Of a stretch of DNA of 64,000 bases, positions 26,857 through 57,399 are shown piece by piece. The notes beneath the pieces were generated by a model that was not told the DNA's origin, did no database searches, and was given only the letters and a program-made list of their open reading frames with translations. This DNA is from Bacteroidota bacterium (lineage in GTDB: Bacteria > Bacteroidota > Ignavibacteria > Ignavibacteriales > Ignavibacteriaceae), in the NCBI GenBank assembly GCA_022564295.1, contig JADFLR010000013.1, positions 1 through 64,000 on the forward strand, given 5' to 3'. Positions within the stretch are counted from its first letter, which is position 1. Each line of letters begins with the position of its first letter. The position numbers and the translations under genes were made by a program.

Positions 26857-27534
26857 CTAATCTATCATACCATTAAGACTTTTAGCTTGAATTAATGAAA
26901 GTTTTTCAGAGTAATAATTAGTAATAATATTATCCGGATCATAAATAACAACAGGATTTTGTTCGTTGCCAAACCTTTTCTTTGAGTTATTTGGTGAATC
27001 GCTTAAAAACATTTCCAAGGGAATGCCTTTTAAATCAGCAAGTTTTCTCTCCTGGACCAATATAATGATTGACTTCAAGCCATTTTTAAAACCTGGTTTC
27101 CTGACTAAAGACACATCCAAATCTGAACTATCTTTCAAATTGCCATTGCAAATACTGCCAAACGATGCACAATAAAGTATAAATGATTTACCATTTAAAC
27201 GATTAGAGAGATTATGAAGGTATAAAAATAAATCTTTCTTTGTAAGCTTTGATAAGTATAAGCGGTGTACTAATAGATTGTAAAAATTACCGTTAACAAT
27301 CCAGTTTAGAGTATGACCGAGCAAAAATCCAAAGAAAATTGACCAAATTATTGAATAATTAAAAGTGTTTTGAAATAATATAAAAAAGCCACACCAAGAA
27401 ATAATTGTAAATAATAACTTATAAATCTTTTCTGTCTTATCTGCATGGAGAATGCCCTGGATTAACCAGTTACTGAACAGTAAGATCCATCTTAGGTAAG
27501 TATTCTGCCTTAGTTTATCTTTAAATCCTTCCAT
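26857..27534 (-). CDS. Membrane-anchored nucleotidyltransferase-fold protein
   Basis: A 225-residue protein with two to three hydrophobic helices in the first ~95 residues (LLFTIISWCGFFILFQ, IIWSIFFGFLLGHTLNWIV). It is followed by a DNA-polymerase-beta-like nucleotidyltransferase signature: YCASFGSICNGNLKDSSDLD, then VSLVRKPG, i.e. G-S-x11-D-x-D. The metal-binding Asp pair is intact. Combination with a membrane anchor and with the kinase-like gene next to it (overlap of 14 bases) suggests nucleotidyl transfer to a lipid-linked sugar or to a partner protein. The pairing has no described function that I know. Confidence 0.6.
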   Translation of the reverse strand: MEGFKDKLRQNTYLRWILLFSNWLIQGILHADKTEKIYKLLFTIISWCGFFILFQNTFNYSIIWSIFFGFLLGHTLNWIVNGNFYNLLVHRLYLSKLTKKDLFLYLHNLSNRLNGKSFILYCASFGSICNGNLKDSSDLDVSLVRKPGFKNGLKSIIILVQERKLADLKGIPLEMFLSDSPNNSKKRFGNEQNPVVIYDPDNIITNYYSEKLSLIQAKSLNGMID

Positions 27535-28174
27535 TTAAGCCAAGTTTATTGAATATTTCATTTCGCACAGTCTCCAATGGACGGTTATTGTCAATGACCT
27601 TTATCCCAAGGTCTTTACTTAGAATATCAAAAACTTCAATCCTTTTAGAAAGATGGGCATCGTATAAAGTATCTTTTTTTCTTAGTCTGATTTCCTTTTC
27701 ATCTACTTTCAAAACAAATATTTTAGTGTTTCGAGGAATAGTATTCAAAAAAGCTTTTCCGACCTTCGTTAAATGCAAACCATATCTGCCGGTATCTACC
27801 ATTAAATCTGCAAGTGTATCGATAGCAAATCTATCTATAAGAAGAATATGATTTTTTCTTCTGTGAAATTTTCTGAATATAATACTTTTTTTAATCTTAA
27901 AATCTATCAATTGAAGAAAAGGAAATAACCAGGATACAAAAGGAGAGCGATAGAATTCATGTACTCCGCATTTTATTCCTCCAATAGTTTTGTATTTAGT
28001 TAATCCTGCAATCCGGCAATAAGCCATTAACGGCTTTGAAAATATTTTTGGAGATCTTATCCAAATTGTATCATATAACTTATTTTCCTCAAGTAACTTT
28101 TTTTCAATAAGATTAATTAAGGTAGTTTTACCGCTACCGTCTGATCCAGTTATGTAGATAATAGAATTAACCAT
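27521..28174 (-). CDS. Thymidylate-kinase-like P-loop kinase
   Basis: A 217-residue protein with a perfect Walker A at the N-terminus (ITGSDGSGKTTLINLIEKKL), a DR motif (LLIDRFAIDTLADLMVDTGRYG) as in thymidylate kinase, and a lid-like arginine region (EIRLRKKDTLYDAHLSKR). It is not the housekeeping Tmk, because it lies within the glycan cluster, is divergent and lacks typical TMP-binding residues. It overlaps the nucleotidyltransferase gene at its end and the GT4 gene at its start, so the three are co-translated. It probably phosphorylates a sugar or lipid intermediate. Confidence 0.65.
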   Translation of the reverse strand: MVNSIIYITGSDGSGKTTLINLIEKKLLEENKLYDTIWIRSPKIFSKPLMAYCRIAGLTKYKTIGGIKCGVHEFYRSPFVSWLFPFLQLIDFKIKKSIIFRKFHRRKNHILLIDRFAIDTLADLMVDTGRYGLHLTKVGKAFLNTIPRNTKIFVLKVDEKEIRLRKKDTLYDAHLSKRIEVFDILSKDLGIKVIDNNRPLETVRNEIFNKLGLNGRI

Positions 28175-29304: not shown

Positions 29305-30387
29305 CTATTTAAAGCGGTCTTGATACTCAGGATTTTCTTTCATCATTCCATGACTTTCCGGGTAATGCTCTATAAACCATAACATAAAAGTATTTACATC
29401 TATACTTTCAGCGACTAATCTTTTTCTTTTAGCCTCAATTGAAGATTTGTCCACTGATTTAAGGATTTCCAGAGCCTTGCGTATTGATTTCTGTTGCTCT
29501 TCTTCACTTTCACCAAAATTAAAAACCAAGTCATATTTATCCTCAAGAATGTCTTGATGTCCTCTACCTACATCATCAAGATAGATTGAAGGTGTCCCCA
29601 AGTAGGCAGCCTCTGCGGCCATTGTTGCACTCTCACCAAAAACTAGTGAACTATAGTATATTGCATGATGCATCCGTACAGGCGAGCATTCAAACTTGTA
29701 TGATTCTAATTCCTCAGGTAGCGGCCCTTCTGAAGAAATAAATACCTTAGCATATTTTTTAAATATATTCACTACCTTTATTTTATTTGAGTCTGAAATT
29801 CCCTTATGACCGATATCGTGATTTGCATTCCAGGAAACAAACCTGAGAATTACAAATTTTTCACCCTCACTTAATCCCAATTGGCGTAGAACATCGGGAT
29901 CCGGAGAAAAGCACTTAGGTCCAAGGTATGCTAATTCAAATCCACCCCTTATGCTAATTTGTTTTTTGCCTAAATCCTTGCGGAAACTAGTAGGTGTAAC
30001 TATAGAATTTGCGAAGGGATTAACAATCTTTTGTAGTAAAGATGAACTCTCAGTATCTTCAAAAACAATAAATGGTTTTCTAATTATATAGCTCGTATAT
30101 GCCAAATGCGGAATTGCCTGACCTATAAAAATATCCGGCTTAAATTTGAGAGAGATTAGAAAAGTTTTTATGGTTAATAAAGGTAGCTGCAGAAGTTTTT
30201 GAATTATTCCTTTTTGATTTGAACCTATTTTCTTATATGAAATGTTAAAACTATCAAGTAATTCACTTGTTATTTCTTTCTCATTGACCAGAACACAATA
30301 TGAGTGACCACGCTTTTCTAATTCAGAGATTAGGTTTTTGAAAATGTGTACCTGTTTGGGATGCGATATACCAACGAGAATATTCAT
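29305..30387 (-). CDS. DUF354 family GT-B-like protein
   Basis: A 360-residue protein of the DUF354 family, which has a GT-B architecture related to UDP-GlcNAc 2-epimerases and is frequent in archaeal and bacterial surface-glycan clusters. Visible: an N-terminal GISHPKQVHIFKNLISELEK, FEDTESSSLLQKIVNPFA, FVILRFVSWNANHDIGHKG and a C-terminal GESATMAAEAAYLGTPSIYL that resembles a nucleotide-sugar site. Likely a glycosyltransferase. It starts 18 bases after the acyltransferase gene. Confidence 0.75.
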   Translation of the reverse strand: MNILVGISHPKQVHIFKNLISELEKRGHSYCVLVNEKEITSELLDSFNISYKKIGSNQKGIIQKLLQLPLLTIKTFLISLKFKPDIFIGQAIPHLAYTSYIIRKPFIVFEDTESSSLLQKIVNPFANSIVTPTSFRKDLGKKQISIRGGFELAYLGPKCFSPDPDVLRQLGLSEGEKFVILRFVSWNANHDIGHKGISDSNKIKVVNIFKKYAKVFISSEGPLPEELESYKFECSPVRMHHAIYYSSLVFGESATMAAEAAYLGTPSIYLDDVGRGHQDILEDKYDLVFNFGESEEEQQKSIRKALEILKSVDKSSIEAKRKRLVAESIDVNTFMLWFIEHYPESHGMMKENPEYQDRFK

Positions 30388-30404: not shown

Positions 30405-31478
30405 TTAGTGATAAGAAGTAAAAGGTTTGAATCTGATTCCAAAATGTTTTAGAAATTTTAAAAGCTCTTCACTTAAATCATTCTTCCCACAAATCGACAA
30501 ATTAGAAAAATTAAGCAGGACTGACTTATGTGCAATAACTGATTCACGAAAGTTTTGACCATGATCATTAAGAATCAGTATTACAGTATTTTCATTGAGT
30601 TTTAAATCATCTATAATTGATTCGTCTCCCCCGATTAAATAAAGAAGATAATCATGTGTAATTTTGCCTTTTGAGATATAATATACTTTATAGAAAGTAA
30701 GTTTATTTACTTCAATATTATAATCATGCTTCCGCAGATAGTTAATAAAGAGATCGATGATTTCCCCTATCTTATGACTCCTATCTTCCGGATGAGGATT
30801 GCGAGGATATAATCCCTCTGGGATAACTACTTTGGCCGGATTACCTTGTGCAAGACATTTTGCAGGGATGTTTTTTGTTACAACAGAGCCAGCTGAAATC
30901 AAAGAGTCATCACCTACTTGAACACCGGGAAGAATAAAAACACCCCAGGAAATCCATACATTGTTACCTATTATAATGGGTGCGTAAGTGCTAGGATATC
31001 CTTCTAGAACAGATTGCCATGCACTATGAGTAAAAAGATAACTTCCTCCTCCGATTGCACTGCAATTTCCAATTTGAACCGGTAGAGTTGTATTGATTAA
31101 GCAATTTTGGTGAACCTGTGACATCTCACCTATTATTAATTCGGAACTCCCAATGTCCATTCCACCGAACATGTTTCGTTCACGAATAATAGTTTGATAA
31201 CCGATTTTGATTTTATCTACTTTAAAATAACATAAGGAACCAATCTCCACCTCTTTATCAATTATACAACTCTTACATAAAAGTATTGTGAAGTGACCTA
31301 TATTTGTATTCTTCCCTATATTAATCTCATTACCGACAATGATCGATCCAAACCCAATAGATACATTTTTTGCTATTTTGTAACCCTTTATTCTGTATAT
31401 AAATGTTTTTATAAAAGAAGGGAAGAAACCCATTGTAATAATTTTAAGGATAGGTATTCTCTGGTTTTTAATTAACAT
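30405..31478 (-). CDS. Hexapeptide-repeat acyltransferase with extra C-terminal domain
   Basis: A 357-residue protein. Residues ~40-225 form a left-handed beta-helix (NVSIGFGSIIVGNEINIGKN, IIIGNNVWISWGVFILPGVQ, VGDDSLISAGSVVTKNIPAK, NPAKVV), the fold of NodL/maltose-type O-acetyltransferases. About 130 additional residues follow (from RSHKIGEIIDLFINYLRKH) that I cannot assign. It overlaps the ACP gene by 11 bases, which suggests that its acyl donor could be the ACP rather than acetyl-CoA. Confidence 0.8.
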   Translation of the reverse strand: MLIKNQRIPILKIITMGFFPSFIKTFIYRIKGYKIAKNVSIGFGSIIVGNEINIGKNTNIGHFTILLCKSCIIDKEVEIGSLCYFKVDKIKIGYQTIIRERNMFGGMDIGSSELIIGEMSQVHQNCLINTTLPVQIGNCSAIGGGSYLFTHSAWQSVLEGYPSTYAPIIIGNNVWISWGVFILPGVQVGDDSLISAGSVVTKNIPAKCLAQGNPAKVVIPEGLYPRNPHPEDRSHKIGEIIDLFINYLRKHDYNIEVNKLTFYKVYYISKGKITHDYLLYLIGGDESIIDDLKLNENTVILILNDHGQNFRESVIAHKSVLLNFSNLSICGKNDLSEELLKFLKHFGIRFKPFTSYH

Positions 31479-31725
31479 TGTTAGAACTTACATCGGTTAA
31501 ATGTTTAATATAATCAATGCTTTTTTGAATACTAGTAATCTGGTTAATTTCCTGAGTCTTGAATTTAATATCAAATTCAGATTCAAAGCTCATTATTAAT
31601 TGTAATTGACCCAATGAATCCCACGAATCAATATCATCCTTTGTAAATGTTAATGATAAATTTTCAACGCTAATATTAAAGACTTTAGAAAATACAGTTA
31701 ATACTTTTTGTTCCAGTTCGTTCAT
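31468..31725 (-). CDS. Acyl carrier protein
   Basis: An 85-residue ACP. The phosphopantetheine serine lies in DDIDSWDSLGQLQLIMSFES (D-S-L motif, residue ~37), followed by FDIKFKTQEINQITSIQKS, the usual helix III-IV region. It sits between FkbH (overlap of one base) and the acyltransferase (overlap of 11 bases). It is likely not the fatty-acid ACP but a dedicated carrier for a small acyl unit (for example glyceryl) used to modify the glycan. Confidence 0.88.
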   Translation of the reverse strand: MNELEQKVLTVFSKVFNISVENLSLTFTKDDIDSWDSLGQLQLIMSFESEFDIKFKTQEINQITSIQKSIDYIKHLTDVSSNNVN

Positions 31726-33407
31726 TAATTTGTTCCGTTTATTTTTATCCAGGGAATATCTTTTACTTTATACGTTTCAAGGTTAGCCACCCAATAGTTT
31801 TTTCTAATTTGTTTAAAATTATGACTTTTATAAAAATTATTACAAGGCGAATTTTTTTTTGTTTCTATAAATTCCCCAGATATTTTTCTCTTACCTGATT
31901 TAATTGCTTCTCTGATAATGTAATTTAACAAAGCTGTTTCAGCAGTTCTTCCGATTACTCTGCAACTTAAAATAAAACTATCTATGACTGTTTTTTTTGA
32001 TTCTTTTTTAACGATTGCTGTTCCAACAATACCATTATCACCAAATTTATCAGTAAGATTTAATACATACACATCATAATTCTCAGCTATTTGGAAGTTT
32101 TTAATTTCTGTCATAGTATATCTTTTGGTAGTTAAATTAAATTGGTTAGTTTTTTGTGTCATTTGTGAAATCCGGGGAATATCGAAGTCAGTTACTCTTC
32201 CAATAGAGGCAATCATCTTGAGGGAATAGTAGAAATCTTCGATGTTATTAATACTAGTTTTAAGATACTCTCTTTTCTTGTTTTCAATGTACATTTCATT
32301 TCGATGTAAATCATCTTTCGTTATATCTAAAAAATCAAAGACTTCAAGTTTTCTTATAAAATTTGGATATTCGGATGGGTCTTCAGGCAATTCCGGGACA
32401 TAAACCTCAGGGAACCTGGTTGAAATTAACTCTCTTTCAAAAGGTGAATCATCTAAAAAAACGAAACTGTCCATTCCAATATTAATTTCCTGAGCAATTT
32501 CCTCCAGGTTTTGGGCTTTATTATTCCAGTTTATTTTAGAACAGATAAAATGTTTTGATCTTAAAATCATATACGGGTGATTATCAATAGCATTTAAAGC
32601 AATATCTTTTGAATTCTTACTATTTAGAACTAATAAAATACCGCGTTTATAAAGTTTGTAAATTTCTCTTTGGAAATCATAAAATGCTTTGCCTATTCCA
32701 TCGTTTGATAACTGAATGTTTTCAATTCCATCTTCACCTATTATTCCCCCCCATAATGTGTTATCAAGATCAAGAATGAGACATTTTTTTCTCTTTCCCT
32801 TATATGCATTAATGTATCTAATATATAATTTACTTAATTGCTTAATACCATTTAGACTCCAATGCGATTTGGCAATATAATGCATTCTCTCGTCGAAAAG
32901 ATTATTAATACCAAATTGTTTTATTAACGATTTAGTATCAATAATTTTTACATTATGCAATTTCCTGGCTAATTCAGTTAATTTAAGATTGCTAATTTCC
33001 TCTGCTTCTAAATAACTATTGCTTGAATTATATTCAAGGGTTGCCATTGTTGCCGGTCGAAAAAAGAAAAAATTATCTATAAAAATCTGAGAACCGGATA
33101 AATTATCGCTAAGTATAATAAACAATTTTATGTTTTCTTCAATTCTATCTATGATTCGATCTATTCTACTATCCATTTTACTTTCAGTATAAATTAAATC
33201 ATCTAATAGTGTAAATAAGTCAAGGGATAGGATTATAATTTCAGGTTTTAAAGAATATAATAATGATTCTTTATTAATTATTTCCTGTTTGTACTGATTA
33301 TATCCGGAAACAAAAACATTTATATCAGGTGTTTCTTTTTTAGTGATTACCTCAAATTCTTTGGCAATTAATTCTTGAGTATAATTACCTAGAAAATAAA
33401 TATTCAT
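31725..33407 (-). CDS. FkbH-like HAD-IIIC phosphatase/acyl loader
   Basis: A 560-residue FkbH-family protein. The N-terminal ~200 residues have an SGNH-like lead (PEIIILSLDLFTLLDD), the central HAD domain shows KKCLILDLDNTLWGGIIGED (DxDxT-type nucleophile, residue ~210-230), LVLNSKNSKDIA and FVFLDDSPFEREL, and the C-terminus is GNAT-like (DNGIVGTAIVKKES, CRVIGRTAETALLNYII). Known members dephosphorylate 1,3-bisphosphoglycerate and load a glyceryl group on an ACP in methoxymalonyl and related pathways. The direct overlap with an ACP gene strongly supports ACP loading here. Confidence 0.88.
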   Translation of the reverse strand: MNIYFLGNYTQELIAKEFEVITKKETPDINVFVSGYNQYKQEIINKESLLYSLKPEIIILSLDLFTLLDDLIYTESKMDSRIDRIIDRIEENIKLFIILSDNLSGSQIFIDNFFFFRPATMATLEYNSSNSYLEAEEISNLKLTELARKLHNVKIIDTKSLIKQFGINNLFDERMHYIAKSHWSLNGIKQLSKLYIRYINAYKGKRKKCLILDLDNTLWGGIIGEDGIENIQLSNDGIGKAFYDFQREIYKLYKRGILLVLNSKNSKDIALNAIDNHPYMILRSKHFICSKINWNNKAQNLEEIAQEINIGMDSFVFLDDSPFERELISTRFPEVYVPELPEDPSEYPNFIRKLEVFDFLDITKDDLHRNEMYIENKKREYLKTSINNIEDFYYSLKMIASIGRVTDFDIPRISQMTQKTNQFNLTTKRYTMTEIKNFQIAENYDVYVLNLTDKFGDNGIVGTAIVKKESKKTVIDSFILSCRVIGRTAETALLNYIIREAIKSGKRKISGEFIETKKNSPCNNFYKSHNFKQIRKNYWVANLETYKVKDIPWIKINGTN

Positions 33408-33817
33408 TTTAATTGTGGCTTTAGATTTTTTTCAACCAGCTCAATAGTAAGATTTTCAATATTAAACATAAATGCAATCCTTTTACCACGAAAAGCAACT
33501 GCTTCTACGGGGCCGGAAATTAAAATAAAATTTTTCTTGGAAAGCTCTTTAATAGTAGTTTCTATATCATCTACCTCATAACAGAAATGATACAAACTGA
33601 TCCTTTTATGAAGTAGTTTAAAAATTGGGGAGTCTTTACTTGCCGGTTCAAGCAATTCATACAGAATGTCATTATCATCCCCCATAAAGATAACTCTTAC
33701 ATCTTGAATTGGATCATATATAATTTCTGATTTTTTCCACCAACCAAGGCTATCTTCAAAATGGTGAATTGCAGATTTAATATCTTTAACAGCTATACCT
33801 AAATGGTTAAGTTTCAT
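33404..33817 (-). CDS. VOC-family (glyoxalase/epimerase-like) metalloprotein
   Basis: A 137-residue protein with two beta-alpha-beta-beta-beta units: KLNHLGIAVKDIKSAIHHFE, YELLEPASKDSPIFKLL, LYHFCYEVDDIETTIKEL and IAFMFNIENLTIELVE. The His and Glu positions fit the metal ligands of methylmalonyl-CoA epimerase/lactoylglutathione-type enzymes. It overlaps fkbH by four bases, so it probably acts on the same acyl intermediate, for example isomerising or forming the acyl group. Confidence 0.8.
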   Translation of the reverse strand: MKLNHLGIAVKDIKSAIHHFEDSLGWWKKSEIIYDPIQDVRVIFMGDDNDILYELLEPASKDSPIFKLLHKRISLYHFCYEVDDIETTIKELSKKNFILISGPVEAVAFRGKRIAFMFNIENLTIELVEKNLKPQLK

Positions 33818-35000: not shown

Positions 35001-36149
35001 CTAATATGAGTTATAAGTATTAAGGCTGTTCCGATATGCTAATAGAGTATCTGCAAATATTTCTGCATTTACTTTGTAATCATGGTGAAGAACTAAATAT
35101 TCTTCAAAATAATCTTTTGATTTATTATGATCTAATTCTTTGCATTTCAAAAGAACCTCATGGATATTTTCTTCGTTAACTAAATATCCTATTGAGTATT
35201 GATTGAAGATATCATCCGGATTAACAATTAATGATATCACCGGTGTTGCAACTGAAAAAGCTTCTAAGAATGTGTTTGAAAAGCCCTCGTATCTCGAAGT
35301 ATTAATCAGAGCATAGGAACCTGATAGGAAGGAGAATACTTCATCTCTTTTTATATTGCCAATAAATTCAACATTATCAAGTGCGCTCAGATTATTTATT
35401 GCATTCGAAGTTTCAGGGTCAAGGGCAGTATTGGATTTGCCAGCAATTTTAAACTTATATTTTTTATTGTTTGCTGCGATACGATAAAATGCAGCTAGAT
35501 TTTTTTGATAAGTAAATGAACCTATCCATGCAAAGTATTGCCTTTCATTATTCAATAAAGGGTCAGTTTTGATACTAGTGTGAAAAGGATTTTTGATAAT
35601 TCTAATAACTTTAGCAGGAAATCGTTTGACCAGGCATTTTTTCTGATAATCATTTTGGCAAATAATTATACTGGCTTGTTTCAAGCCAATATTATAAAAT
35701 ATTCTGCTCCTGTGCGAAAGAACTGTAGATAATCTCTCATCAACGTCAATATCATTCGCAACCAAATATACAAAAGGTATCCTTAAGATTTTTGAGATGA
35801 TGGCAATTATACCTGTATCGAAGCCCGCACATCTTTGAATTAAAAAATCCGGTTTGTAGTTTTTAATAGAGAAGAAAAGTCTTGGTATCCGGTAGTAGAT
35901 CCAGCGAAGGTATTTTAATCCGTATTCTTTGTGATAAGATTCTATAATTTCGAAACCAGGATCAGAGCCTACAAATTCTTTCGAACCCTTCCAGGTTAGA
36001 ACTCCTACACTATTGCCATGATAAACTAAACCATTAACGAATGCTAAAAGTCTTACTGAAGCACCACCAATAATTACATCAGAATAGTTTAATAAATAAC
36101 GAATATTATAATCGATGAATAAAAGTTTAAGATTAGAAATTTTGTCCAT
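35001..36149 (-). CDS. Glycosyltransferase, family 4 type (intact paralogue)
   Basis: A 382-residue GT4 enzyme with an N-terminal IDYNIRYLLNYSDVIIGGAS loop, FAWIGSFTYQKNLAAFYRIA, VEFIGNIKRDEVFSFLSGSY and RYEGFSNTFLEAFSVATPVI (E-x7-E region). Its first ~160 residues are nearly copied in the truncated gene at 37102-37596, with long identical blocks such as GVLTWKGSKEFVGSDPGF. This copy is complete. Confidence 0.85.
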   Translation of the reverse strand: MDKISNLKLLFIDYNIRYLLNYSDVIIGGASVRLLAFVNGLVYHGNSVGVLTWKGSKEFVGSDPGFEIIESYHKEYGLKYLRWIYYRIPRLFFSIKNYKPDFLIQRCAGFDTGIIAIISKILRIPFVYLVANDIDVDERLSTVLSHRSRIFYNIGLKQASIIICQNDYQKKCLVKRFPAKVIRIIKNPFHTSIKTDPLLNNERQYFAWIGSFTYQKNLAAFYRIAANNKKYKFKIAGKSNTALDPETSNAINNLSALDNVEFIGNIKRDEVFSFLSGSYALINTSRYEGFSNTFLEAFSVATPVISLIVNPDDIFNQYSIGYLVNEENIHEVLLKCKELDHNKSKDYFEEYLVLHHDYKVNAEIFADTLLAYRNSLNTYNSY

Positions 36150-37101: not shown

Positions 37102-37596
37102 TTATTTCAAGCTAAAATTATAAAATATTCTATTCCTGTGCGAAAGAACTGTGGATAATCTCTCATCAAAGTAGATATCATTCGCAACCATATATACAAA
37201 AGGGATCTTTAAGAATTTTGAGCTAACAGCAATAATACCTGTTTTGAAACACGCACATCTTTGAATTAGAAAATCCGGTTTGTAGTTTTTAATAGAAAAG
37301 AAAAGTCTTGGTATCCGGTAGTAGATCCAGCGGAGATATTTTAATCCGTATTCTTTGTGATAAGTTTCTATCATTCCGAAACCTGGATCAGAGCCTACAA
37401 ATTCTTTCGAACCCTTCCAGGTAAGAACTCCTACACTGTGACCACGATGAATTAGTCCCTTGCAAAATGCATACAGTCTTACGGTTGCACCACCAACAAA
37501 AACATCAGAATTTTTAAGGAGATAAGGAATATTAAAATCAAAAAATAAAATCCTTAATTTATACGGCTTATCCATTTGCGGATCGAATTTCCCCAA
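37102..37596 (-). pseudogene. Truncated duplicate of the GT4 gene at 35.0-36.1 kb
   Basis: A 164-residue protein that matches the N-terminal domain of the GT4 enzyme at 35001-36149 (identical blocks SVGVLTWKGSKEFVGSDPGF, YGLKYLRWIYYRIPRLFFSI) and stops at RIFYNFSLK. DNA similarity continues for a few bases after the stop and ends at ~37097, where unrelated AT-rich sequence leads to the methyltransferase gene. The nucleotide-binding C-terminal domain is missing, so it cannot be a functional transferase. Its 5' end overlaps the end of wzy by 29 bases. Confidence 0.8.
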
Positions 37597-47502: not shown

Positions 47503-49311
47503 TTAAAAGTCTAAAAATTTACTCACTAATCCGTATCTAAGAATTATATCAGTAACATTACTACTCTTTATTTTCCTTTTAGAAAACTCAGGTATTTGAA
47601 ATCGACTTACAATATTTGCAATTTCAATCGGTGAAAAACAATTTTGAATAAATGATTTTCTCGGATTTGTAAATCCTCGTTTAGAGGTATAAACTATGGA
47701 TTTCGGTAAGTATTTTTCTAATAATGACTTTAAAACCCATTTTTGTCCGTTTTTACAAAAAGCAACTGAAGAATATTGTTTTGTTAGTTCAAATAACTTT
47801 TTATTCAAAAATGGTGCTCTAACTTCAATACTGGCCCGCATTGATCCTCTTTCCATGTACGGTATATAACTGTTTGGTAATGTATGGCAAATATCAAACA
47901 TTCTGCCTGTTTCTAACAGATCAGAATCGTGATACTTTGAGAAAGACTGAATAAAATCTTTAAGTGCAGGTAATTCCTTCAAGTAATTAAAACCAATTGA
48001 GTTTTTAACATATAAATATGCCAAGCTTGGATCTAACATTTTATAAAATAATGTTTTGGTAAATTTATTATTTGGGATGAATCGGTGCACTTTATGAAAC
48101 CAGTGTGAAGAACCTTTGAAATAATCATGTGTCGATTTTATTTGAGAAATTTTGGAGAGGGTTTTATATTTATTATATCCATAAAATAATTCATCTCCAC
48201 CTGTCCCGGTTAATGCAACTTTAATATATTCAGAAGCAGCTCTCGAAATAATATTTGCTGAAATTACTGTGAGATTATCATTTAACTCACCATAACTCGA
48301 AAATAGGAAATCTAAATCATCGATACTCAGCGAATTTTCCTGTTGCTCAAGGATTATATGATTTAAGCTGAGGAATTCCGCAGCTCTCTTTGCATCATTA
48401 CTTTCATCTATTACCTCATCATTCGAAAATTTAACTGTTAAAGATAAAATATCTTTATTCAACTCTTTTTTCACTACAGAAGCAATCAGTAAGGAATCTA
48501 CACCGGATGAGAGAAAGATTCCAAGAGGGACATCGGATATGATACGACTTTCAACTGAGCTGATAAGTACATTATGAATTGTTTTTAAGTCATCAACATT
48601 AATTATATCTTTTGTATCATTTTTATTAATGTAGGTATCATATTCCCAATATTTTTCTTTATTTAAATGTTTTGTGGAAATATTATATTCTGCATATGTA
48701 GCTGGTCCCAGCTTCTTTACATTTTTGAAACCAGTTCTGTCCTCTGGCAAGAAACCCAGTCCCACAAAAAGTTCAATATCGGATTGAGTCAATTCTTTCT
48801 CAATATTTAAGTTATCAGTAAAAGCAATAATCTCAGAAGAAAAATAAATTCCTTCTTTTGTTTCATAAATGTATAATGGTTTTTCACCAAATGGGTCAGT
48901 TCCAAAAATAATCTTCCCTTCATGATAATATGCAAAGGCAAACATTCCATCAAACTTCTCTAACGCAGATTTACCCCATATTCTTAATGATTTAATTACT
49001 ACTTCGGTGTCCCCTGAAGTGAAAAAACGTTCACCCATACCTTTTAATTCTTGTTTTAATGATAAGAAATTATATATCTCACCATTATATACAAGTACAT
49101 CTCCATTCAATATCATCGGTTGGGAGTTTTTTTTACTAAGATCAATAATTCTCAACCTTGTATGGCCTAGAAATATCCCGTTATCATAGTCAACCCAATA
49201 TCCGGAATCATCCGGGCCTCTATGCTTCAGACTTTTCAGGGCATCAATTCCCACTTTAATGTCTAAATCATTTAATTTTCTATCTAATGAAAAACCAAAA
49301 ATTCCACACAT
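47503..49311 (-). CDS. asnB: Asparagine synthetase-like amidotransferase (complete)
   Basis: A 602-residue AsnB-type enzyme. The Ntn-glutaminase domain begins MCGIFGFSLD with the catalytic Cys2 and has HRGPDDSGYW, LVYNGEIYNFLSLKQEL and GMFAFAYY. The synthetase domain has the ATP pyrophosphatase loop PLGIFLSSGVDSLLIASVVK at ~260 and ALTGTGGDELFYGYNKY at ~350. In glycan clusters such proteins (WbpS type) amidate uronic acids with glutamine-derived ammonia. That fits the uronate epimerase at 59.5 kb. Three bases separate it from the second synthetase-like gene. Confidence 0.9.
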   Translation of the reverse strand: MCGIFGFSLDRKLNDLDIKVGIDALKSLKHRGPDDSGYWVDYDNGIFLGHTRLRIIDLSKKNSQPMILNGDVLVYNGEIYNFLSLKQELKGMGERFFTSGDTEVVIKSLRIWGKSALEKFDGMFAFAYYHEGKIIFGTDPFGEKPLYIYETKEGIYFSSEIIAFTDNLNIEKELTQSDIELFVGLGFLPEDRTGFKNVKKLGPATYAEYNISTKHLNKEKYWEYDTYINKNDTKDIINVDDLKTIHNVLISSVESRIISDVPLGIFLSSGVDSLLIASVVKKELNKDILSLTVKFSNDEVIDESNDAKRAAEFLSLNHIILEQQENSLSIDDLDFLFSSYGELNDNLTVISANIISRAASEYIKVALTGTGGDELFYGYNKYKTLSKISQIKSTHDYFKGSSHWFHKVHRFIPNNKFTKTLFYKMLDPSLAYLYVKNSIGFNYLKELPALKDFIQSFSKYHDSDLLETGRMFDICHTLPNSYIPYMERGSMRASIEVRAPFLNKKLFELTKQYSSVAFCKNGQKWVLKSLLEKYLPKSIVYTSKRGFTNPRKSFIQNCFSPIEIANIVSRFQIPEFSKRKIKSSNVTDIILRYGLVSKFLDF

Positions 49312-49313
49312 AA

Positions 49314-51119
49314 TTAAAAATCCTGTGATAAAAACTCATTAACTGTAATAATAGTTGTCATAAAAGCTCCTCCTAAAGTATTCTGCTCAGAATTTAATTT
49401 TTTATTTTCTGGATTTAACCAATTGTCGACATCAGTTTTTATTTTAACCATATTAAATATGTCCAATTCCTCAAGCATATGTGAACTTGCTGCTTTAATA
49501 GCAGCAACTTGAAGATTTTTTTCATACTGAAAGGCATCATCCCTTAGCGGCCAGGTTCTTTCATTTTCATTTACCAGAATTTCATTTTTCATAGCTTTTC
49601 TGCTCTTTCTCCATAAGTAATCCCATACCCAAATAAATGTTTTTTCAATTGGAGAGCTTACAGCTCTATAGCGGGTGTTTGCTGATATAACATTTCCGAG
49701 ATCCTTATTTAATATTTTAAGTGTCTCTCTTGCAAGTTTACCACCGATTTTTAGTTGTGGAGGTATCTGATGAAATAAATCAAATAACCTATTTTCAAAA
49801 GTCAATGTCCTTTGTTCTATATAGGTCATCAAACTGGTAATATTTGAATTAGAATAGTGCCTCGACAATGCGTGAGTAATTAAATATTCATAAATATCAT
49901 ATTTGGATTGAAATTCAATTCCAGATTCAGTAATAACATCTGTAGCTGAGCTATATAACATTTCATAATAATCATCCTTATTTTTTAATAGTAAATAATC
50001 CAACAAGTTAACGTGCTTTAGCCGGAAAGGTATATTGTTTATAAAAAATTTTACAGGATCAGTCATAATCGGTTTATATTTTGGGATGTGAGTTCGTTTT
50101 CCGAATAGATGGTAATAAGTAACCGGTACGTACATGCCTTGAAACATATAGTCAAATCCGTGTCCATGAAATGCAACGTCAGCGTATGGAGTAACTTCAT
50201 CTTTATAATCAAGAAAAATAGCATGGTCATAAGCATACATCCCCCCCCCTAATTTAACTGATTTATCAAGAATTAAGGAATATTTATTATCGGGAAGGTG
50301 AAGATAATGATGGTTAGCCCGTTTAATTTTAGCAATCTTTTTTGCAACCTGGAATTCAATATTTCGTGTAACTGCTATTGTAAAACAAACTGGTGGTTGT
50401 TCAAAGGCAGACAACATTGTTCTTGAATCGATCCCCCCGCTTAAAAATAAGCCAGCCCTTGGATTATCACTGGTCTTTAGGATAATAGAATTTTTAATTG
50501 CTCCAGCTAATAAATAAGCAAACTCTTTAACTGAATTATTAGATTTTTGAAAACTTGGTTTCCAGTAATTAATAATAGAGGATGAATTACCAACGATTGA
50601 AAAGACGGATGCCGGTGTTAGAAACTTCGATATTTTGTCAAGTGTTTTATTCCCCAGAAGTTTGTGAAACCACATAAATTCGAATACATTGTAAGGTTCT
50701 ATTACCGTGGCTAGGTTTTCTTTCACCCATAAATCATTATAACTAACTGAAAATATATGTTTCTCAGCAGTTGAAAAATAATAGATTGGGATTGATGCGA
50801 ATCTATCATTAATAATCTGAACTTTTCTATTCTGATTATCAATTATGAAAATTGTAAACTCACCATTGATCTTTTGTAATATGTTAAGGTCATTATTTCT
50901 TTCAAACTCCAATAATTTTTCAACTGTTAGATGCTTATCGATCTTATTCCCAATTATTGGATTACCCAGAATGCAGAATATCCTTTGATCTTTTTGTAAG
51001 AAAAATGGTTCAGGATGATAGTTCTCATATTCTAATTTTATCGTAAATTCTTCTTTATTAATTATTGTTAGATAGAAGTGAAATAATCCGTCATCATTCA
51101 TTGTTTTGATTATTTTCAT
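49314..51119 (-). CDS. Asparagine-synthetase-like protein lacking the catalytic Cys
   Basis: A 601-residue protein with the same two-domain layout: an N-terminal glutaminase-like domain (ILQKINGEFTIFIIDNQNRK, IINDRFASIPIYYFS) and a synthetase domain with ARAGLFLSGGIDSRTMLSAF (PP-loop) at ~220. It begins MKIIKTMNDDG, with no Cys at position 2, so it cannot hydrolyse glutamine. Such a pattern is known from beta-lactam synthetase-like and lasso-peptide cyclase enzymes that form an amide without free ammonia. It might couple an amino compound to a sugar carboxylate. It has no close identity to the adjacent AsnB. Confidence 0.8.
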   Translation of the reverse strand: MKIIKTMNDDGLFHFYLTIINKEEFTIKLEYENYHPEPFFLQKDQRIFCILGNPIIGNKIDKHLTVEKLLEFERNNDLNILQKINGEFTIFIIDNQNRKVQIINDRFASIPIYYFSTAEKHIFSVSYNDLWVKENLATVIEPYNVFEFMWFHKLLGNKTLDKISKFLTPASVFSIVGNSSSIINYWKPSFQKSNNSVKEFAYLLAGAIKNSIILKTSDNPRAGLFLSGGIDSRTMLSAFEQPPVCFTIAVTRNIEFQVAKKIAKIKRANHHYLHLPDNKYSLILDKSVKLGGGMYAYDHAIFLDYKDEVTPYADVAFHGHGFDYMFQGMYVPVTYYHLFGKRTHIPKYKPIMTDPVKFFINNIPFRLKHVNLLDYLLLKNKDDYYEMLYSSATDVITESGIEFQSKYDIYEYLITHALSRHYSNSNITSLMTYIEQRTLTFENRLFDLFHQIPPQLKIGGKLARETLKILNKDLGNVISANTRYRAVSSPIEKTFIWVWDYLWRKSRKAMKNEILVNENERTWPLRDDAFQYEKNLQVAAIKAASSHMLEELDIFNMVKIKTDVDNWLNPENKKLNSEQNTLGGAFMTTIITVNEFLSQDF

Positions 51120-51339
51120 ATCTACTTGCTGAATAAAATTTGTGATAAAGATTTCAAATTATTTTTATTTCCTTGTTATTGATTCAACTTCATTGTTTAC
51201 CGAAAGATAGATTCAATAAAAAGGAAAACATTAAAGAATATTTTACTTTTTTTACTATTATATATAGATATTTATCAGACCATAGAACATTTTATATGTG
51301 GCAAGGATATTGTAGTTGGTAAAAATGTCCAAGTCCGAT

Positions 51340-52920
51340 TTAAAGAAAAAGATTAATAAATTCATCATTATTACATTTTTCCTCATCGTGTAATGCGGTT
51401 TCAATTTTACCTAAATCGAATTCATATAAGTTATCGTTGTTGATTATCACAGAGAATATTGAGCATCGATTCTCCAATATTAATTTCATATTTGGATTTA
51501 TAGGTTCCCAACCTCCATCTAGTATAATAATTGGCTTATTTGTACAAAGAGCTGGACCTAAGGTTGATGTTCTCGTATGATAAAAAATGAAAGCGTCTGC
51601 TAAAGCCATGGATTCTTCAAATGGCTGATATATGATTTCTGCTTTTGGAAAAAATGATATATTTTTATCTCTAAAGTAATCACCGGGGTGTTTTTGGTAA
51701 AGCACACTATATCCAGCATTATAGAGTAGTTCAACTAATTTATATTCAAAATGTAATTTCACCAAATTGGGTACAAAATGTGGTAAAGCTTGATTTTCAT
51801 AGGTATATGGACAGGTAACAATCATTATCTTTTTAGATACCTTTTTTCTTACTCCTGCATATTTATTGACCTTATAAGGTTGAAAGATACTTGTGTTCGC
51901 GCCAATGATTTTACAATTATTCATATTTGGTGCTGGAAATCTTTTTGCTGTATCGCGAAACGCTTTAGCAGAATGATCTGTAAATGTATAAAAATTATCA
52001 GCAAAGGGTAAATCTAGCCATGATACCCAATCAAGTTCATGCGCTAATGGATTACCATGCATGAATCCATTTATTTCTACTCCTCTATTTTTCATAAGTA
52101 AAGTAAACATTCGAGTTTGATGAGATGAATTACAACCTAAAAATATTTTTTCCCCTTTCCATTTCAATACATTGCTTTCCATACTTTTCATTAAAATATA
52201 TGTTTCTAAAAATATATTTGAGGTAATATTTTCTAAGTAGATAAGCTGGCTATCACTAAAAGAAAGATCAAATTGATCTGCTACATCTGAAATTTTCAAC
52301 ACCATTTTATTAACATTTCGTTTAATTGGGATCAAAATCTTATCAGGTGTATTTATAGAAATATTTCGATTCTTTATGATAAAATTGTTGATATCTAATG
52401 GTAACACCAACACCGATCGCTTTTTATTGAAGTAATCAATATTGTGCTCATTATAATTTTGAAAGAGCAAATAATTAAATTCAGAGAATTTATATCGTGT
52501 AAAGCGATTATACTTAATTATTTTTTTAGCTTTGTTAAATAACGGCACAGCATTAACATTGCGGATAGAAAGTTTGGATAAAAAACTATTCCTTGGAACC
52601 CCATGCTCAATAAGTCCTTTAATATAATCAGAATCTTCTGAATATACTGGAATTAAATTAATATCCTGCAAACTGGAAATTATTTTTAGAGAATGTACAA
52701 AAGTGATGTACTCCAATATCACCTTATAGTTAACAAGAACTAATTGACCCCATAGATTGGCAAAATTCGCAGATATTTCTTTATTATAATTGTAATAGAA
52801 GGGAATTGATGTGAATCGATCATTAATGATTTTAAGACTGTCTTCAACCTTATCGAAGATAAGAATAAGAAATTCACCATTGATATTTTTTATAAAGCGT
52901 AGATCTGAATTATGATTCAA
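51340..52920 (-). CDS. GT-like protein fused to a glutaminase-like N-domain (main frame)
   Basis: The C-terminal ~350 residues are a GT-B-like domain: KIFLGCNSSHQTRMFTLLMK, FMHGNPLAHELDWVSWLDLP, YQKHPGDYFRDKNISFFPK and FIFYHTRTSTLGPALCTNKP, resembling capsule-type transferases. The same domain is in the gene at 53338-54912. The N-terminal ~80 residues (FIKNINGEFLILIFDKVEDS, IINDRFTSIPFYYN) match the glutaminase-like domain of the Cys-less synthetase at 49314-51119. The TTG at 52920 is not a convincing start: the same frame is open up to 53085, and beyond a TAG to an ATG at 53163. See the interrupted 5' part. Confidence 0.65.
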   Translation of the reverse strand: MNHNSDLRFIKNINGEFLILIFDKVEDSLKIINDRFTSIPFYYNYNKEISANFANLWGQLVLVNYKVILEYITFVHSLKIISSLQDINLIPVYSEDSDYIKGLIEHGVPRNSFLSKLSIRNVNAVPLFNKAKKIIKYNRFTRYKFSEFNYLLFQNYNEHNIDYFNKKRSVLVLPLDINNFIIKNRNISINTPDKILIPIKRNVNKMVLKISDVADQFDLSFSDSQLIYLENITSNIFLETYILMKSMESNVLKWKGEKIFLGCNSSHQTRMFTLLMKNRGVEINGFMHGNPLAHELDWVSWLDLPFADNFYTFTDHSAKAFRDTAKRFPAPNMNNCKIIGANTSIFQPYKVNKYAGVRKKVSKKIMIVTCPYTYENQALPHFVPNLVKLHFEYKLVELLYNAGYSVLYQKHPGDYFRDKNISFFPKAEIIYQPFEESMALADAFIFYHTRTSTLGPALCTNKPIIILDGGWEPINPNMKLILENRCSIFSVIINNDNLYEFDLGKIETALHDEEKCNNDEFINLFL

Positions 52921-54928: not shown

Positions 54929-55633
54929 TTAAAATTTATTTAAATATGTAAAAATACATTTTGCCATTTCAAGATCTGCCTCTTCATCAATATCAATTGC
55001 AAACTTCCAATCTATAGGAAATAATTTAAAGTTTGGTCCGTAAAATGTTCTCGCTTTTTTAAACTCATCAATTTTTGCTATCCAGATTGCACCAGTGGGG
55101 CAAAATAATTCATCCAAATCTTGTGATCTCTTCATAAAAGCTTCAGGAAATAACTTCATAGTTTTATTTTGTTTATTTATTCTCATAGCCCACCATGGAT
55201 TCATCCAACCGAACTTATTTACACTAATTTGAAAACAGGTATCTTTAACTATAAAATTCTCAAATGCCTTTATGATTTGTATTTCATTTCGTAATGGGCA
55301 ATTTGGCATGAGTTGCACAATATTATCATATTTTTCAGTATAAAAATTTTCAATTTTATAGGTGGAAGATAATGTTGCTTTATGAACACTAGAATTATCA
55401 TTATAATGAGAATCTCTCAAAAATGGGACATCGAGACCAAAATCCTTAGCAATATCGGCTATAACTTGGGAATCAGTGCTTACAAATATTCTCTTAAATA
55501 ATTTCGATTTAAGGGCGGCTTCAATCGTGTGAACAATTAATGGTTTGCCAAAGAAATCTACAATATTTTTATTAGGTATACGTTTCGAACCACCCCTTGC
55601 CGGGATAATAGCTAAATTTTTCACGCTCGGCAT
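54929..55633 (-). CDS. CMP-nonulosonic acid cytidylyltransferase (NeuA/PseF-type)
   Basis: A 234-residue acylneuraminate cytidylyltransferase: AIIPARGGSKRIPNKNIVDF at the N-terminus (CTP-binding loop), DFFGKPLIVHTIEAAL, VSTDSQVIADIAKDFG and VQLMPNCPLRNEIQI, then PTGAIWIAKIDEF and AIDIDEEADLEMAK. It activates a nonulosonic acid (sialic, pseudaminic or legionaminic type) as CMP-sugar. Which one is not decidable from sequence; the adjacent PseG-like gene favours a di-N-acetyl type. Confidence 0.87.
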   Translation of the reverse strand: MPSVKNLAIIPARGGSKRIPNKNIVDFFGKPLIVHTIEAALKSKLFKRIFVSTDSQVIADIAKDFGLDVPFLRDSHYNDNSSVHKATLSSTYKIENFYTEKYDNIVQLMPNCPLRNEIQIIKAFENFIVKDTCFQISVNKFGWMNPWWAMRINKQNKTMKLFPEAFMKRSQDLDELFCPTGAIWIAKIDEFKKARTFYGPNFKLFPIDWKFAIDIDEEADLEMAKCIFTYLNKF

Positions 55634-55658
55634 AGACTTAATATGATTTACTTACTCT

Positions 55659-56333
55659 TTAGTTATCTGATTTAGCATCACGGTAAATATTTTTTGTATG
55701 CTTTCTGGCTGCGTATCCAATTACAGTAGTTTTTGCTGGAACATTCTTGACTACAGTTGAACCGGCCCCGATTAGTGCTGCTTTCCCGATGTGAATATCT
55801 GGTAAAATTGTTGCACCAATTCCGATAAAAGCCAATTCGTCCACAATTACCCTACCAGCGGTTTTTGAACCTGGTGCCATATGTGCACTAAATCCTATAA
55901 TATTATCATGTTCAATTATAGAACCTGTATTGATTATTGTTGCATCATTAATAATTGATCCATTGTTAATTATTGCACCAGCACCAATGAAACAACCATT
56001 ACCAATTTTTGCTTTTTCACTAACAATAGCCGATGGGTGAATAAGTGAAACAACTTCATAGCCCTGCTTAGTTAACTCTTTAAAGAGTTTCCCCCTGGCT
56101 GCATTGTCACCAATTGCGATATGAAAAATTATCGATTCAAATTTCTGTGTTTTGAAATTACTTGAAGATCCAAGAACGGGAATATTATTGATATAAGTTC
56201 CCTTAAATTCAGGCGTATTATCAAGAAAACCAATAACTTTAAACGTCTTTGTTTTAGCAATAAGGTCAAGAACAACACCTGCATGGCCATCCATTCTTGC
56301 ACCGACAATTACAATTGGTTTTAATTTTATCAT
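55659..56333 (-). CDS. NeuD/PglD-type sugar acetyltransferase
   Basis: A 224-residue protein with an N-terminal Rossmann-like PglD domain (PIVIVGARMDGHAGVVLDLI, VIGFLDNTPEFKGTYINNIP) and a C-terminal left-handed beta-helix (SAIVSEKAKIGNGCFIGAGA, APGSKTAGRVIVDELAFIGI, GSTVVKNVPAKTTVIGYAAR). It N- or O-acetylates an amino sugar in nonulosonic acid or bacillosamine pathways, here probably the 4-amino group produced by the aminotransferase at 58.5 kb. Confidence 0.85.
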   Translation of the reverse strand: MIKLKPIVIVGARMDGHAGVVLDLIAKTKTFKVIGFLDNTPEFKGTYINNIPVLGSSSNFKTQKFESIIFHIAIGDNAARGKLFKELTKQGYEVVSLIHPSAIVSEKAKIGNGCFIGAGAIINNGSIINDATIINTGSIIEHDNIIGFSAHMAPGSKTAGRVIVDELAFIGIGATILPDIHIGKAALIGAGSTVVKNVPAKTTVIGYAARKHTKNIYRDAKSDN

Positions 56334-56355
56334 AACTTATAATTCAAAATATTAT

Positions 56356-57399
56356 TTATTCGTTTTCAATATCAATCCAAGAAAGTAGATGTTCTACATT
56401 CAAATTTGTTTTTGCACTTTTCCCAAGAATATTATCCCAATATTTTGGGGGAATTCCAATACCAGGGCGTTTAACTGTTAAGTTTTTACTTGAGAAAGTA
56501 TCACCAGCGATAATTTTGCTGCCAACTACAATACTACATCTGTGCACTTTTCTCTGGCCAATTTCCTTTTCACCAAATATTCTTACAGTAGTACCAAGCC
56601 CTTGTTCTACTTCTCTAATAGATACGATAAGTTCTTGAAGTTCTTGTGGTTCAATTGATGCAGAATGATCCGGTCCAAAAGCATTTGAATTAAGTGTAAA
56701 ATGTTTCTCAATTATTTTTGCACCTAAAGCTCTTGCAGCTATGGCCATAGTTGAACCTAATGTATGATCAGAATATCCAACAGGATAACCGAAAGCATTT
56801 TTAAGAGTTTGCATAAATAATAAGTTAGTTGTATATATTTCTGCCGGATACCACGATATACAATGTAAAAGGACAATTTTATCATTATTTTCCTTAGTTA
56901 TAACTTCAAGTGCTTCTTCTATTTCTCCCAATGTAGCCATACCTGTAGATAGAATAATCGGTAGCTTCGATGCAGCCATATGCTTTAATAAAGGAATATT
57001 TGTTAAATTGCCTGATGCAACCTTAATAACATCAATCCCTAGTTTGTAAAGAAAATCAAAAGAGTCCTTATCAAAAGGCGTTGATAGGAATTTTATTGCT
57101 TTATTATCACAATATTCTTTAAGCTCCATATGGCTTTCTTCATCCAATTCGAGTCTATGCAATAAATCTCTAAAAGATTCACTTTTGTAACTTCCTTTAT
57201 CAATATAAGTACTGGTTAACGCATTGGGTGTAACAAGTTTTTTCGCTTTGAAGCATTGAAATTTTACATAGTCAGCTTTTGCTTCAATTGCTGCGTCCAC
57301 CATTTTTTTAGCTTTTATTAATTCTCCATCATGGTTGATTCCAGCTTCTGCAATTATAAGAGTATTCGCATTTTCATTTACTAGTTCAGCATAATTCAT
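56356..57399 (-). CDS. Nonulosonic acid synthase (NeuB/LegI/PseI-type)
   Basis: A 347-residue NeuB-family synthase, condensing phosphoenolpyruvate with a 6-carbon amino sugar to a 9-carbon nonulosonate. Visible: IAEAGINHDGELIKAKKMVD, VKFQCFKAKKLVTPNA, KVASGNLTNIPLLKH, VLLHCISWYPAEIY, YSDHTLGSTMAIAARALGAK, IIEKHFTLNSNAFGPDHSAS, and a C-terminal antifreeze-like SAF domain. Catalytic residues are intact. The HCISWYPA form differs from the HCTTEYPA of classic NeuB, so the substrate is likely not ManNAc. Confidence 0.9.
   Translation of the reverse strand: MNYAELVNENANTLIIAEAGINHDGELIKAKKMVDAAIEAKADYVKFQCFKAKKLVTPNALTSTYIDKGSYKSESFRDLLHRLELDEESHMELKEYCDNKAIKFLSTPFDKDSFDFLYKLGIDVIKVASGNLTNIPLLKHMAASKLPIILSTGMATLGEIEEALEVITKENNDKIVLLHCISWYPAEIYTTNLLFMQTLKNAFGYPVGYSDHTLGSTMAIAARALGAKIIEKHFTLNSNAFGPDHSASIEPQELQELIVSIREVEQGLGTTVRIFGEKEIGQRKVHRCSIVVGSKIIAGDTFSSKNLTVKRPGIGIPPKYWDNILGKSAKTNLNVEHLLSWIDIENE

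Follow-up and report, generated by a model that had tools for sequence, protein, structure and literature searches.

What do an FkbH-family protein and an acyl carrier protein (ACP) do among glycan genes? The question is raised by a 64,000-nucleotide stretch from a bacterium of the Ignavibacteriaceae (assembly GCA_022564295.1, contig JADFLR010000013.1; hereafter the window), in which a VOC-family gene, an FkbH gene, an ACP gene and a gene for a beta-helix acyltransferase follow one another. The formation of glyceryl-ACP from 1,3-bisphosphoglycerate by FkbH is known chemistry in polyketide clusters, and FkbH/ACP loading has been described there for the FK520 methoxymalonyl-ACP genes, the tetronate glycerate-utilisation operon, Mad7/Mad8 and Mad14/Mad12 (PMC7489565; this and all other papers are cited from excerpts). 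By comparison of FkbH loci from many genomes, VOC-FkbH-ACP appears as a recurring module, and the four genes together do not form one conserved unit. We estimate a probability of roughly 0.58 that VOC-FkbH-ACP is a carrier-loading module for a glyceryl-type (2-hydroxyacyl) group destined for a surface glycan.

The four open reading frames (ORFs) of the locus are all on the minus strand and overlap by 4 bases (VOC/FkbH), 1 base (FkbH/ACP) and 11 bases (ACP/acyltransferase); the initial annotation of the window had described them in this way, and its coordinates, overlaps and family assignments were all reproduced. They belong to a minus-strand cluster that spans 22.5-60.6 kb of the window and includes glycosyltransferases, two FkbM methyltransferases, a flippase-like protein and a weakly polymerase-like protein. 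The earlier statement that there is no polyketide synthase agrees with the present scan, in which 33 of the 34 cluster ORFs (all except that at 37102-37596) yielded neither a ketosynthase nor an MBOAT protein. This lack of a ketosynthase in the scanned ORFs, the VOC partner and the glycan gene surroundings distinguish the window from the FkbH/ACP systems of polyketide clusters. The length of the overlaps was rejected as informative by itself, since overlaps occur at 8 of the 32 joints of the cluster, the three described here included.

The recurrence of the module was examined by searching named genomes with eight aligned FkbH proteins of the window's class. The best 80 of 508 FkbH relatives, a sample that leans towards the window's kind, were joined with 17 stretches from class genomes, and after removal of two duplicates (L051 and L068) from these 97, 95 loci remained, some of which are cut by contig ends. 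An ACP gene was present within 5 kb of FkbH at 84 of the 95 loci, and at 59 loci it lay on the same strand and overlapped FkbH or was at most 50 bases away from it, in 56 cases downstream. VOC genes were found within 5 kb of FkbH at 29 loci. Seven loci showed the VOC gene before FkbH with a 4-base overlap as in the window, counted with longest-ORF starts (L033, L035, L091, L093, L099, L106 and L119), and eight had the same-strand order VOC-FkbH-ACP (L035, L074, L081, L091, L093, L099, L106 and L119). The hosts with this order belong to the window's own order, Bacteroidota, Planctomycetota and Chloroflexota. Thus, the linkage of these three genes in other genomes, whose absence had been named beforehand as a refuting result, is present. 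FkbH hosts also include thaumarchaea and Asgard archaea, where an ACP gene adjoins FkbH at loci such as L050, L055, L056 and L063. Neighbouring genes were grouped by similarity, and each group (MBOAT, SDR, KASIII, phosphopantetheinyl transferase and others) takes its name from the one or few members that were scanned; a group with a scanned phosphopantetheinyl transferase member occurred near FkbH at 8 of the 95 loci.

Whether the VOC protein belongs to FkbH was addressed by comparing its copies. Its best NCBIfam model is that of methylmalonyl-CoA epimerase (TIGR03081, 74.0 bits against a cut-off of 114.95), and its best solved relatives, 2qh0 and 3hdp, are named glyoxalase I, so that it might be read as a stray methylmalonyl-CoA epimerase or a detoxifying glyoxalase with no relation to FkbH. 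Several observations make this very improbable: the score is below the epimerase cut-off, the genome has a separate second VOC copy (C45:68535-68879), the order and the 4-base overlap with FkbH recur, and the linked VOCs form a clade of their own. Among 294 genomes of the class, including that of the window, an FkbH match was found in 27 and a VOC match in 242, all but 8 of which have a single copy. Two VOC copies were present in 6 of the 27 genomes with FkbH and in 2 of the 267 without it (Fisher p = 9e-6, or 7e-5 when the window genome is left out). In all six genomes with FkbH and two VOC copies, one of the copies lies at most 1.3 kb from FkbH. In a VOC tree of 58 rows, 27 of the 30 rows from FkbH loci fell into one clade (support 99/99), apart from 24 copies that are not near FkbH and are presumed to be methylmalonyl-CoA epimerases; four further rows of this clade represent two proteins, from genomes G176 and G119. 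Judged from copy number, location and phylogeny, the VOC protein is a partner of FkbH and not a bystander.

The residues of this clade point to the kind of reaction involved. Like Clostridium acetobutylicum glyoxalase I (3hdp/2qh0) and methylmalonyl-CoA epimerase, the window VOC is a VOC-family protein with four metal ligands; its linkage to FkbH-ACP sets it apart from both. The positions which we take to be these ligands are highly conserved in the linked clade (H5 and E54 in 27/27, H77 and E126 in 26/27 rows; L045, L046 and L126, whose VOCs fall outside the clade, were counted as VOC-positive loci and left out of these residue counts). In contrast to the unlinked copies, which have His, Val and Ala or Ser in all 24 cases, the linked clade carries Tyr76 (23/27), Asp35 (22/27) and Cys79 (22/27), respectively, and all three residues recur in the aligned glyoxalase I of C. 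acetobutylicum. A profile of the clade scored 146-147 bits with the latter enzyme and 78 with human methylmalonyl-CoA epimerase; the 24 unlinked VOCs reached 67-93, six held-out clade members 92-141, so that the weakest of them overlap the best unlinked VOCs, and the G176 and G119 proteins 113-118. The product of glyoxalase I is a 2-hydroxyacyl thioester, and as glyceryl-S-ACP is such a thioester, it is proposed that the VOC protein acts at C2. These similarities suggest chemistry on 2-hydroxyacyl thioesters such as glyceryl-S-ACP. The C. acetobutylicum enzyme is treated as glyoxalase I in a review (PMC5412262).

Some related VOC genes show different arrangements. In the G176 and G119 proteins, Lys replaces the metal ligand Glu54; same-clade VOCs with Lys at a metal-ligand position are located at L197:9205-9624 and L198:9006-9431 in FkbH-less genomes, and the neighbours of the L198 gene are glycan genes. 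At L160:12545-13735, a VOC domain forms the C-terminal end of a 396-residue ORF whose first approximately 240 residues have no Pfam match, and this ORF is placed after FkbH-ACP and before an AMP-ligase and a second ACP.

The loading pair itself can be assigned with more detail. The window FkbH scored 298.1 bits with TIGR01686 (299.8 in the whole-genome search), well over the curated cut-off of 146.65, and seven residues of catalytic type, the HAD aspartates among them (D213, D215, K297, D319, D320, C482 and R483), are identical in 78 of 78 relatives. Its C-terminal domain was modelled at a predicted local distance difference test (pLDDT) score of 95 as a GNAT fold (Z 16.3 to RimI, root-mean-square deviation 2.0 over 134 residues) and contains the invariant Cys482, presumably the carrier of the acyl group; 3slr is the sole solved relative of the protein. 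The ACP matches PP-binding at 21.0 bits, just above the cut-off of 20.8, and has in its translation the serine of a DSL motif for phosphopantetheine attachment. NCBIfam ACP models also match it with E-values down to 4.8e-11, below the models' own cut-offs, and solved ACPs are among its relatives.

Based on these families, a three-step pathway may be proposed. First, the HAD domain of FkbH would dephosphorylate D-1,3-bisphosphoglycerate, and the glyceryl group would pass via Cys482 of the GNAT-fold domain to the phosphopantetheine of ACP. Second, the VOC protein, related to glyoxalase I and methylmalonyl-CoA epimerase and with a conserved metal site, would act at C2 of glyceryl-S-ACP, most simply by inverting its configuration through an enediolate (as an epimerase or isomerase). 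Third, a separate acyltransferase that depends on the cluster (a PseH-type GNAT, a beta-helix protein or an MBOAT protein) would transfer the group to an amine or hydroxyl of a sugar. For the window, an amino sugar or the cluster's own nonulosonic acid is the probable acceptor, and the beta-helix protein next to the module or a NeuD-type protein at 55659-56333 is proposed as the transferase. The features concerned are listed in Table 1.

Table 1. Module genes and related features of the window
Feature	Position	Strand	Size and matches
VOC protein, first gene of the module	33404-33817	-	137 residues; Glyoxalase_4 3.2e-19
FkbH-family protein, predicted glyceryltransferase/phosphatase	31725-33407	-	560 residues; FkbH_N (N-terminal), HAD-IIIC, C-terminal GNAT-fold domain
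ACP, predicted glyceryl carrier	31468-31725	-	85 residues; PP-binding and ACP models
Left-handed beta-helix (hexapeptide) acyltransferase	30405-31478	-	357 residues; Hexapep; 135-residue C-terminal extension
Glycosyltransferase-like DUF354 protein, adjacent to the acyltransferase	29305-30387	-	DUF354
Cluster's own pathway to a nonulosonic (sialic-like) acid, possible acceptor pathway	54929-60574	-	NeuB_NnaB and NeuD over cut-off

A possible acceptor is suggested by nonulosonate genes. In L035, from a genome of the window's order (G211), the module is part of an operon with the order PseB-PseC-PseG-methyltransferase-PseH-VOC-FkbH-ACP-PseI, in which PseB (519.7, cut-off 407.75), PseC (489.4, 423.5), PseH (107.3, 93.1) and PseI (505.6, 340.25) all exceed the cut-offs of their models; PseG, at 138.1, lies below its cut-off of 153.55 and is the best and only match of its gene. 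A Lachnospiraceae locus (L129) has the order FkbH-ACP-PseH-PseI-PseG without VOC, with PseI and PseG over the cut-off and PseH just below it. A plasmid of Maritalea myrionectae (NZ_CP021332.1, L226:4714-11235) encodes an FkbH fused to an Antibiotic_NAT domain, an SDR protein, a DUF4910/DUF2172 protein and a NeuB-family protein, with a pseB gene also near and with no separate ACP or VOC gene in the region. In the window, the nonulosonate genes encode a dehydratase, an aminotransferase, a PseG-like hydrolase, NeuB, a NeuD acyltransferase and a PseF-like cytidylyltransferase, of which NeuB_NnaB and NeuD exceed their cut-offs and PseF and PseG do not. As the synthase scored 412 with NeuB_NnaB (cut-off 400) and 284 with PseI (cut-off 340, not reached), the pathway of the window is by its model scores of the NeuB/NnaB type and not of the PseI type, in which it differs from the pseudaminic acid systems described below.

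Glyceroyl groups have been reported on such sugars. Tannerella carries Pse5Am7Gra, and the gene for its glyceroyl group was called "elusive" (PMC6120980). Campylobacter jejuni 11168 has a 7-acetamido-5-(2,3-di-O-methylglyceroyl)amino pseudaminic acid, whose glyceroyl group was described by Logan et al. 2009 (cited in PMC3068675); the phase-variable, aminopeptidase-like cj1295 is needed for the group and was hypothesised to free the amine (PMC3068675). The product proposed for the window resembles both, as here too a bacterial surface sugar would bear an acyl group of the glyceryl type. The available sections show the need for cj1295 in C. jejuni without naming where the glyceroyl group comes from, and no source is assigned for Tannerella (PMC3068675, PMC6120980). 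As in the window, an fkbH-domain gene, cj1302, is present in the glycosylation locus of C. jejuni (PMC7099621). This gene is a pseudogene in strain 12664, which lacks the di-O-methylglyceroyl group that 11168 has, and strain 12661 lacks both the group and cj1301, "annotated as an epimerase" (PMC7099621); no link between the state of these genes and the absence of the group is drawn in the sections of that paper available. The strain pattern matches what the module would predict, in a comparison that is confounded. With regard to the DUF4910/DUF2172 gene of the Maritalea locus, it may be noted that cj1295 is likewise described as aminopeptidase-like (PMC3068675).

The fourth gene requires a separate discussion. 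Its product matches Hexapep (35.4, cut-off 27), and the nearest families, WcaF and maltose O-acetyltransferase, give at best 62.6 bits against an NCBIfam cut-off of 192; by these scores it is a member of the left-handed beta-helix acyltransferase superfamily, with no named subfamily among the matches shown. The extra domain had been annotated as unassigned, and it still has no Pfam match. A four-sequence profile of the extension gave no credible hit to a solved structure (best E 0.49), searching genomes with the extension alone returned mostly weak matches, many with internal stops, and an AlphaFold2 model of the whole protein from the single sequence reached a pLDDT of 35. Full-length relatives, extension included, occur in 3 of the 293 other class genomes (G061, G193 and G103), and His151, presumably the catalytic His of hexapeptide acyltransferases, is invariant in all four proteins.

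It was predicted in the initial annotation that all four genes form one pathway, in which FkbH and VOC make an acyl-ACP whose acyl group passes to a sugar; on this reading, the beta-helix protein would use that ACP through its extra domain. The adjacency and the 11-base overlap of ACP and acyltransferase are consistent with this, as are hexapeptide-type genes near FkbH at 22 of the 95 loci (e.g. L119) and in plasmid locus L202, and the presence in G061 of FkbH and an acyltransferase relative on the same contig, approximately 13 kb apart. However, the acyltransferase with its extra domain was found in none of the other 95 FkbH loci, and two of the three full-length relatives (G193 and G103), with the extension present there too, are in genomes without an FkbH match at E 1e-3, by which the four genes as a unit were rejected. 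A DUF354-type gene directly follows the acyltransferase in the window, G061 (L157) and G193 (L158), though not in G103 (L159), and overlapping joints are common in the cluster as given above. A single four-gene pathway is therefore considered doubtful. Because of the FkbH-less relatives, the DUF354 pairing and the acetyl-CoA enzymes that are its nearest families, the acyltransferase is treated as adjacent to the module and not as a conserved member; it was possibly recruited to it. The earlier prediction of a glyceryl-type acyl-ACP made by FkbH and ACP outside polyketide synthesis, in glycan clusters, is favoured by sequence inference, and its extension to the four-gene unit is not.

On the other hand, the beta-helix protein may be an ordinary sugar O-acetyltransferase that works with DUF354, and the glyceryl group may reach the nonulosonic acid through the NeuD-type protein. 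The acyltransferase/DUF354 pairing, the acetyl-CoA enzymes as nearest families, the cluster's own nonulosonate pathway with NeuD over its cut-off, and FkbH-ACP beside PseH and PseI in L035 and L129 are all in line with this possibility, which deserves serious attention although we lean the other way: NeuD lies approximately 22 kb from FkbH in the window, NeuD-type matches within 5 kb of FkbH were found at 12 of the 95 loci, and acetyl-CoA is the normal donor of NeuD proteins.

Other neighbours of FkbH suggest further routes. MBOAT genes were found near FkbH at 34 of the 95 loci, SDR genes at 36 and KASIII genes at 9. In Dlt-type D-alanylation (DltA/DltC/DltB), a small acid is loaded on a carrier protein, and the frequency of MBOAT suggests a Dlt-like route; the proposed system resembles Dlt in its carrier-loaded small acid and in the MBOAT genes of its relatives, and differs in that FkbH and not an adenylating ligase does the loading, and in the lack of MBOAT in the scanned ORFs of the window cluster. 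Eight plasmid regions were also examined, of which seven are annotated; an ACP gene lies beside FkbH in four, MBOAT is present in two and VOC in one, and in three of the seven neither ACP nor VOC is annotated near FkbH. The order in plasmid CP049034.1 is ACP-FkbH-MBOAT-hypothetical-VOC-hexapeptide acyltransferase. In a megaplasmid of Sinorhizobium meliloti, a species tractable in the laboratory (CP050512.1, L229:815-5849), MBOAT, one further gene, ACP and FkbH follow one another, and FkbH matches were found in 40 Sinorhizobium plasmid records.

Instead of being transferred directly, the acyl-ACP could serve as the starter or extender of a short fatty-acid-like group on the glycan, for example dihydroxyhexanoyl. 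VOC-FkbH-ACP lies between KASIII, SDR and additional ACP genes in L093, L099 and L106, and an N-acyl group of the O-polysaccharide of Flavobacterium psychrophilum has been predicted to involve a dedicated ACP and ketosynthases (PMC6519341), but no ketosynthase was found in the 33 cluster ORFs scanned in the window, where this explanation seems improbable.

Several points weigh against direct supply of a glyceryl-type group by VOC-FkbH-ACP. The glyceryl substrate of the window FkbH would follow from family membership, and the KASIII and SDR counts, together with one plasmid with fatty-acid-type genes, imply that the acyl group may be extended. The VOC proteins of G176 and G119 come from genomes without an FkbH match at E 1e-3, and 3 of the 30 linked VOCs (L045, L046 and L126) fall outside the clade. 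VOC labels change 19 times over a tree of 94 FkbH proteins, compared with a mean of 24.6 after shuffling (L034, L063 and L126 were labelled as lacking VOC although a VOC gene is nearby); since most FkbH loci also lack VOC, some products must be made without the VOC protein. A direct nonulosonate link is seen at only 2 of the 95 loci, with NeuB within 5 kb of FkbH at 3, and the window's own nonulosonate genes are 21 kb from the module. In a phylum sample, NeuB lies within 30 kb of FkbH in at least 3 of 24 FkbH genomes, including the window genome and one below the FkbH cut-off, and the FkbH-NeuB link across the phylum is weak in this sample. Moreover, the Campylobacter comparison is confounded by the need for cj1295, by its phase variation and by other differences in gene content between the strains (PMC3068675, PMC7099621).

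With regard to novelty, no assignment of FkbH to a glycan acyl group was found in titles, abstracts and excerpts of openly licensed papers, and nothing was found there on FkbH together with O-antigen, so that earlier proposals may exist elsewhere; of the FkbH/glyceryl-ACP literature found, only PMC7099621 concerns glycans by its title or abstract. The chemistry is known from polyketides, and the glycan use and the VOC partner look new within this searchable literature. Flagellar and S-layer sugars are known to carry glyceroyl and O-methylglyceroyl groups, and the module may be the source, so far missing, of the glyceric-acid groups found on sialic-acid-like sugars of bacteria; the L035 operon, with VOC-FkbH-ACP between PseH and PseI, is a directly testable candidate. 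If true, this would take glyceryl-ACP beyond antibiotic synthesis into surface glycans, and it would point to a function for the VOC clade, the solved member of which is named glyoxalase. A broader proposal, which we hold only tentatively and consider unlikely in its full extent, is that VOC-FkbH-ACP is a widespread undescribed system for surface-glycan glyceroylation in bacteria and archaea, in which FkbH would replace the adenylating enzyme of a Dlt-like route, VOC would be a new epimerase of carrier-bound 2-hydroxyacyl groups (D- to L-glyceryl-S-ACP), the transferases (PseH-type, beta-helix or MBOAT) would be interchangeable, and the unassigned glyceroyl groups of nonulosonic acids would be accounted for.

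Some additional features were observed elsewhere in the cluster. An overlapping pair at 26857-28174 encodes a weakly nucleotidyltransferase-like and a P-loop kinase-like protein, with KAP_NTPase, at its threshold, as the pair's only match over a cut-off. The 164-residue ORF at 37102-37596 is a truncated duplicate, located two genes upstream, of the beginning of the glycosyltransferase gene at 35001-36149 (86% identical DNA over 447 bases). Near the nonulosonate genes, two tandem asparagine-synthase genes and a third gene with a weak glutamine-amidotransferase match occupy 47503-52920; asparagine-synthase genes were also found beside the G103 acyltransferase relative and near the FkbH-less VOC of G119.

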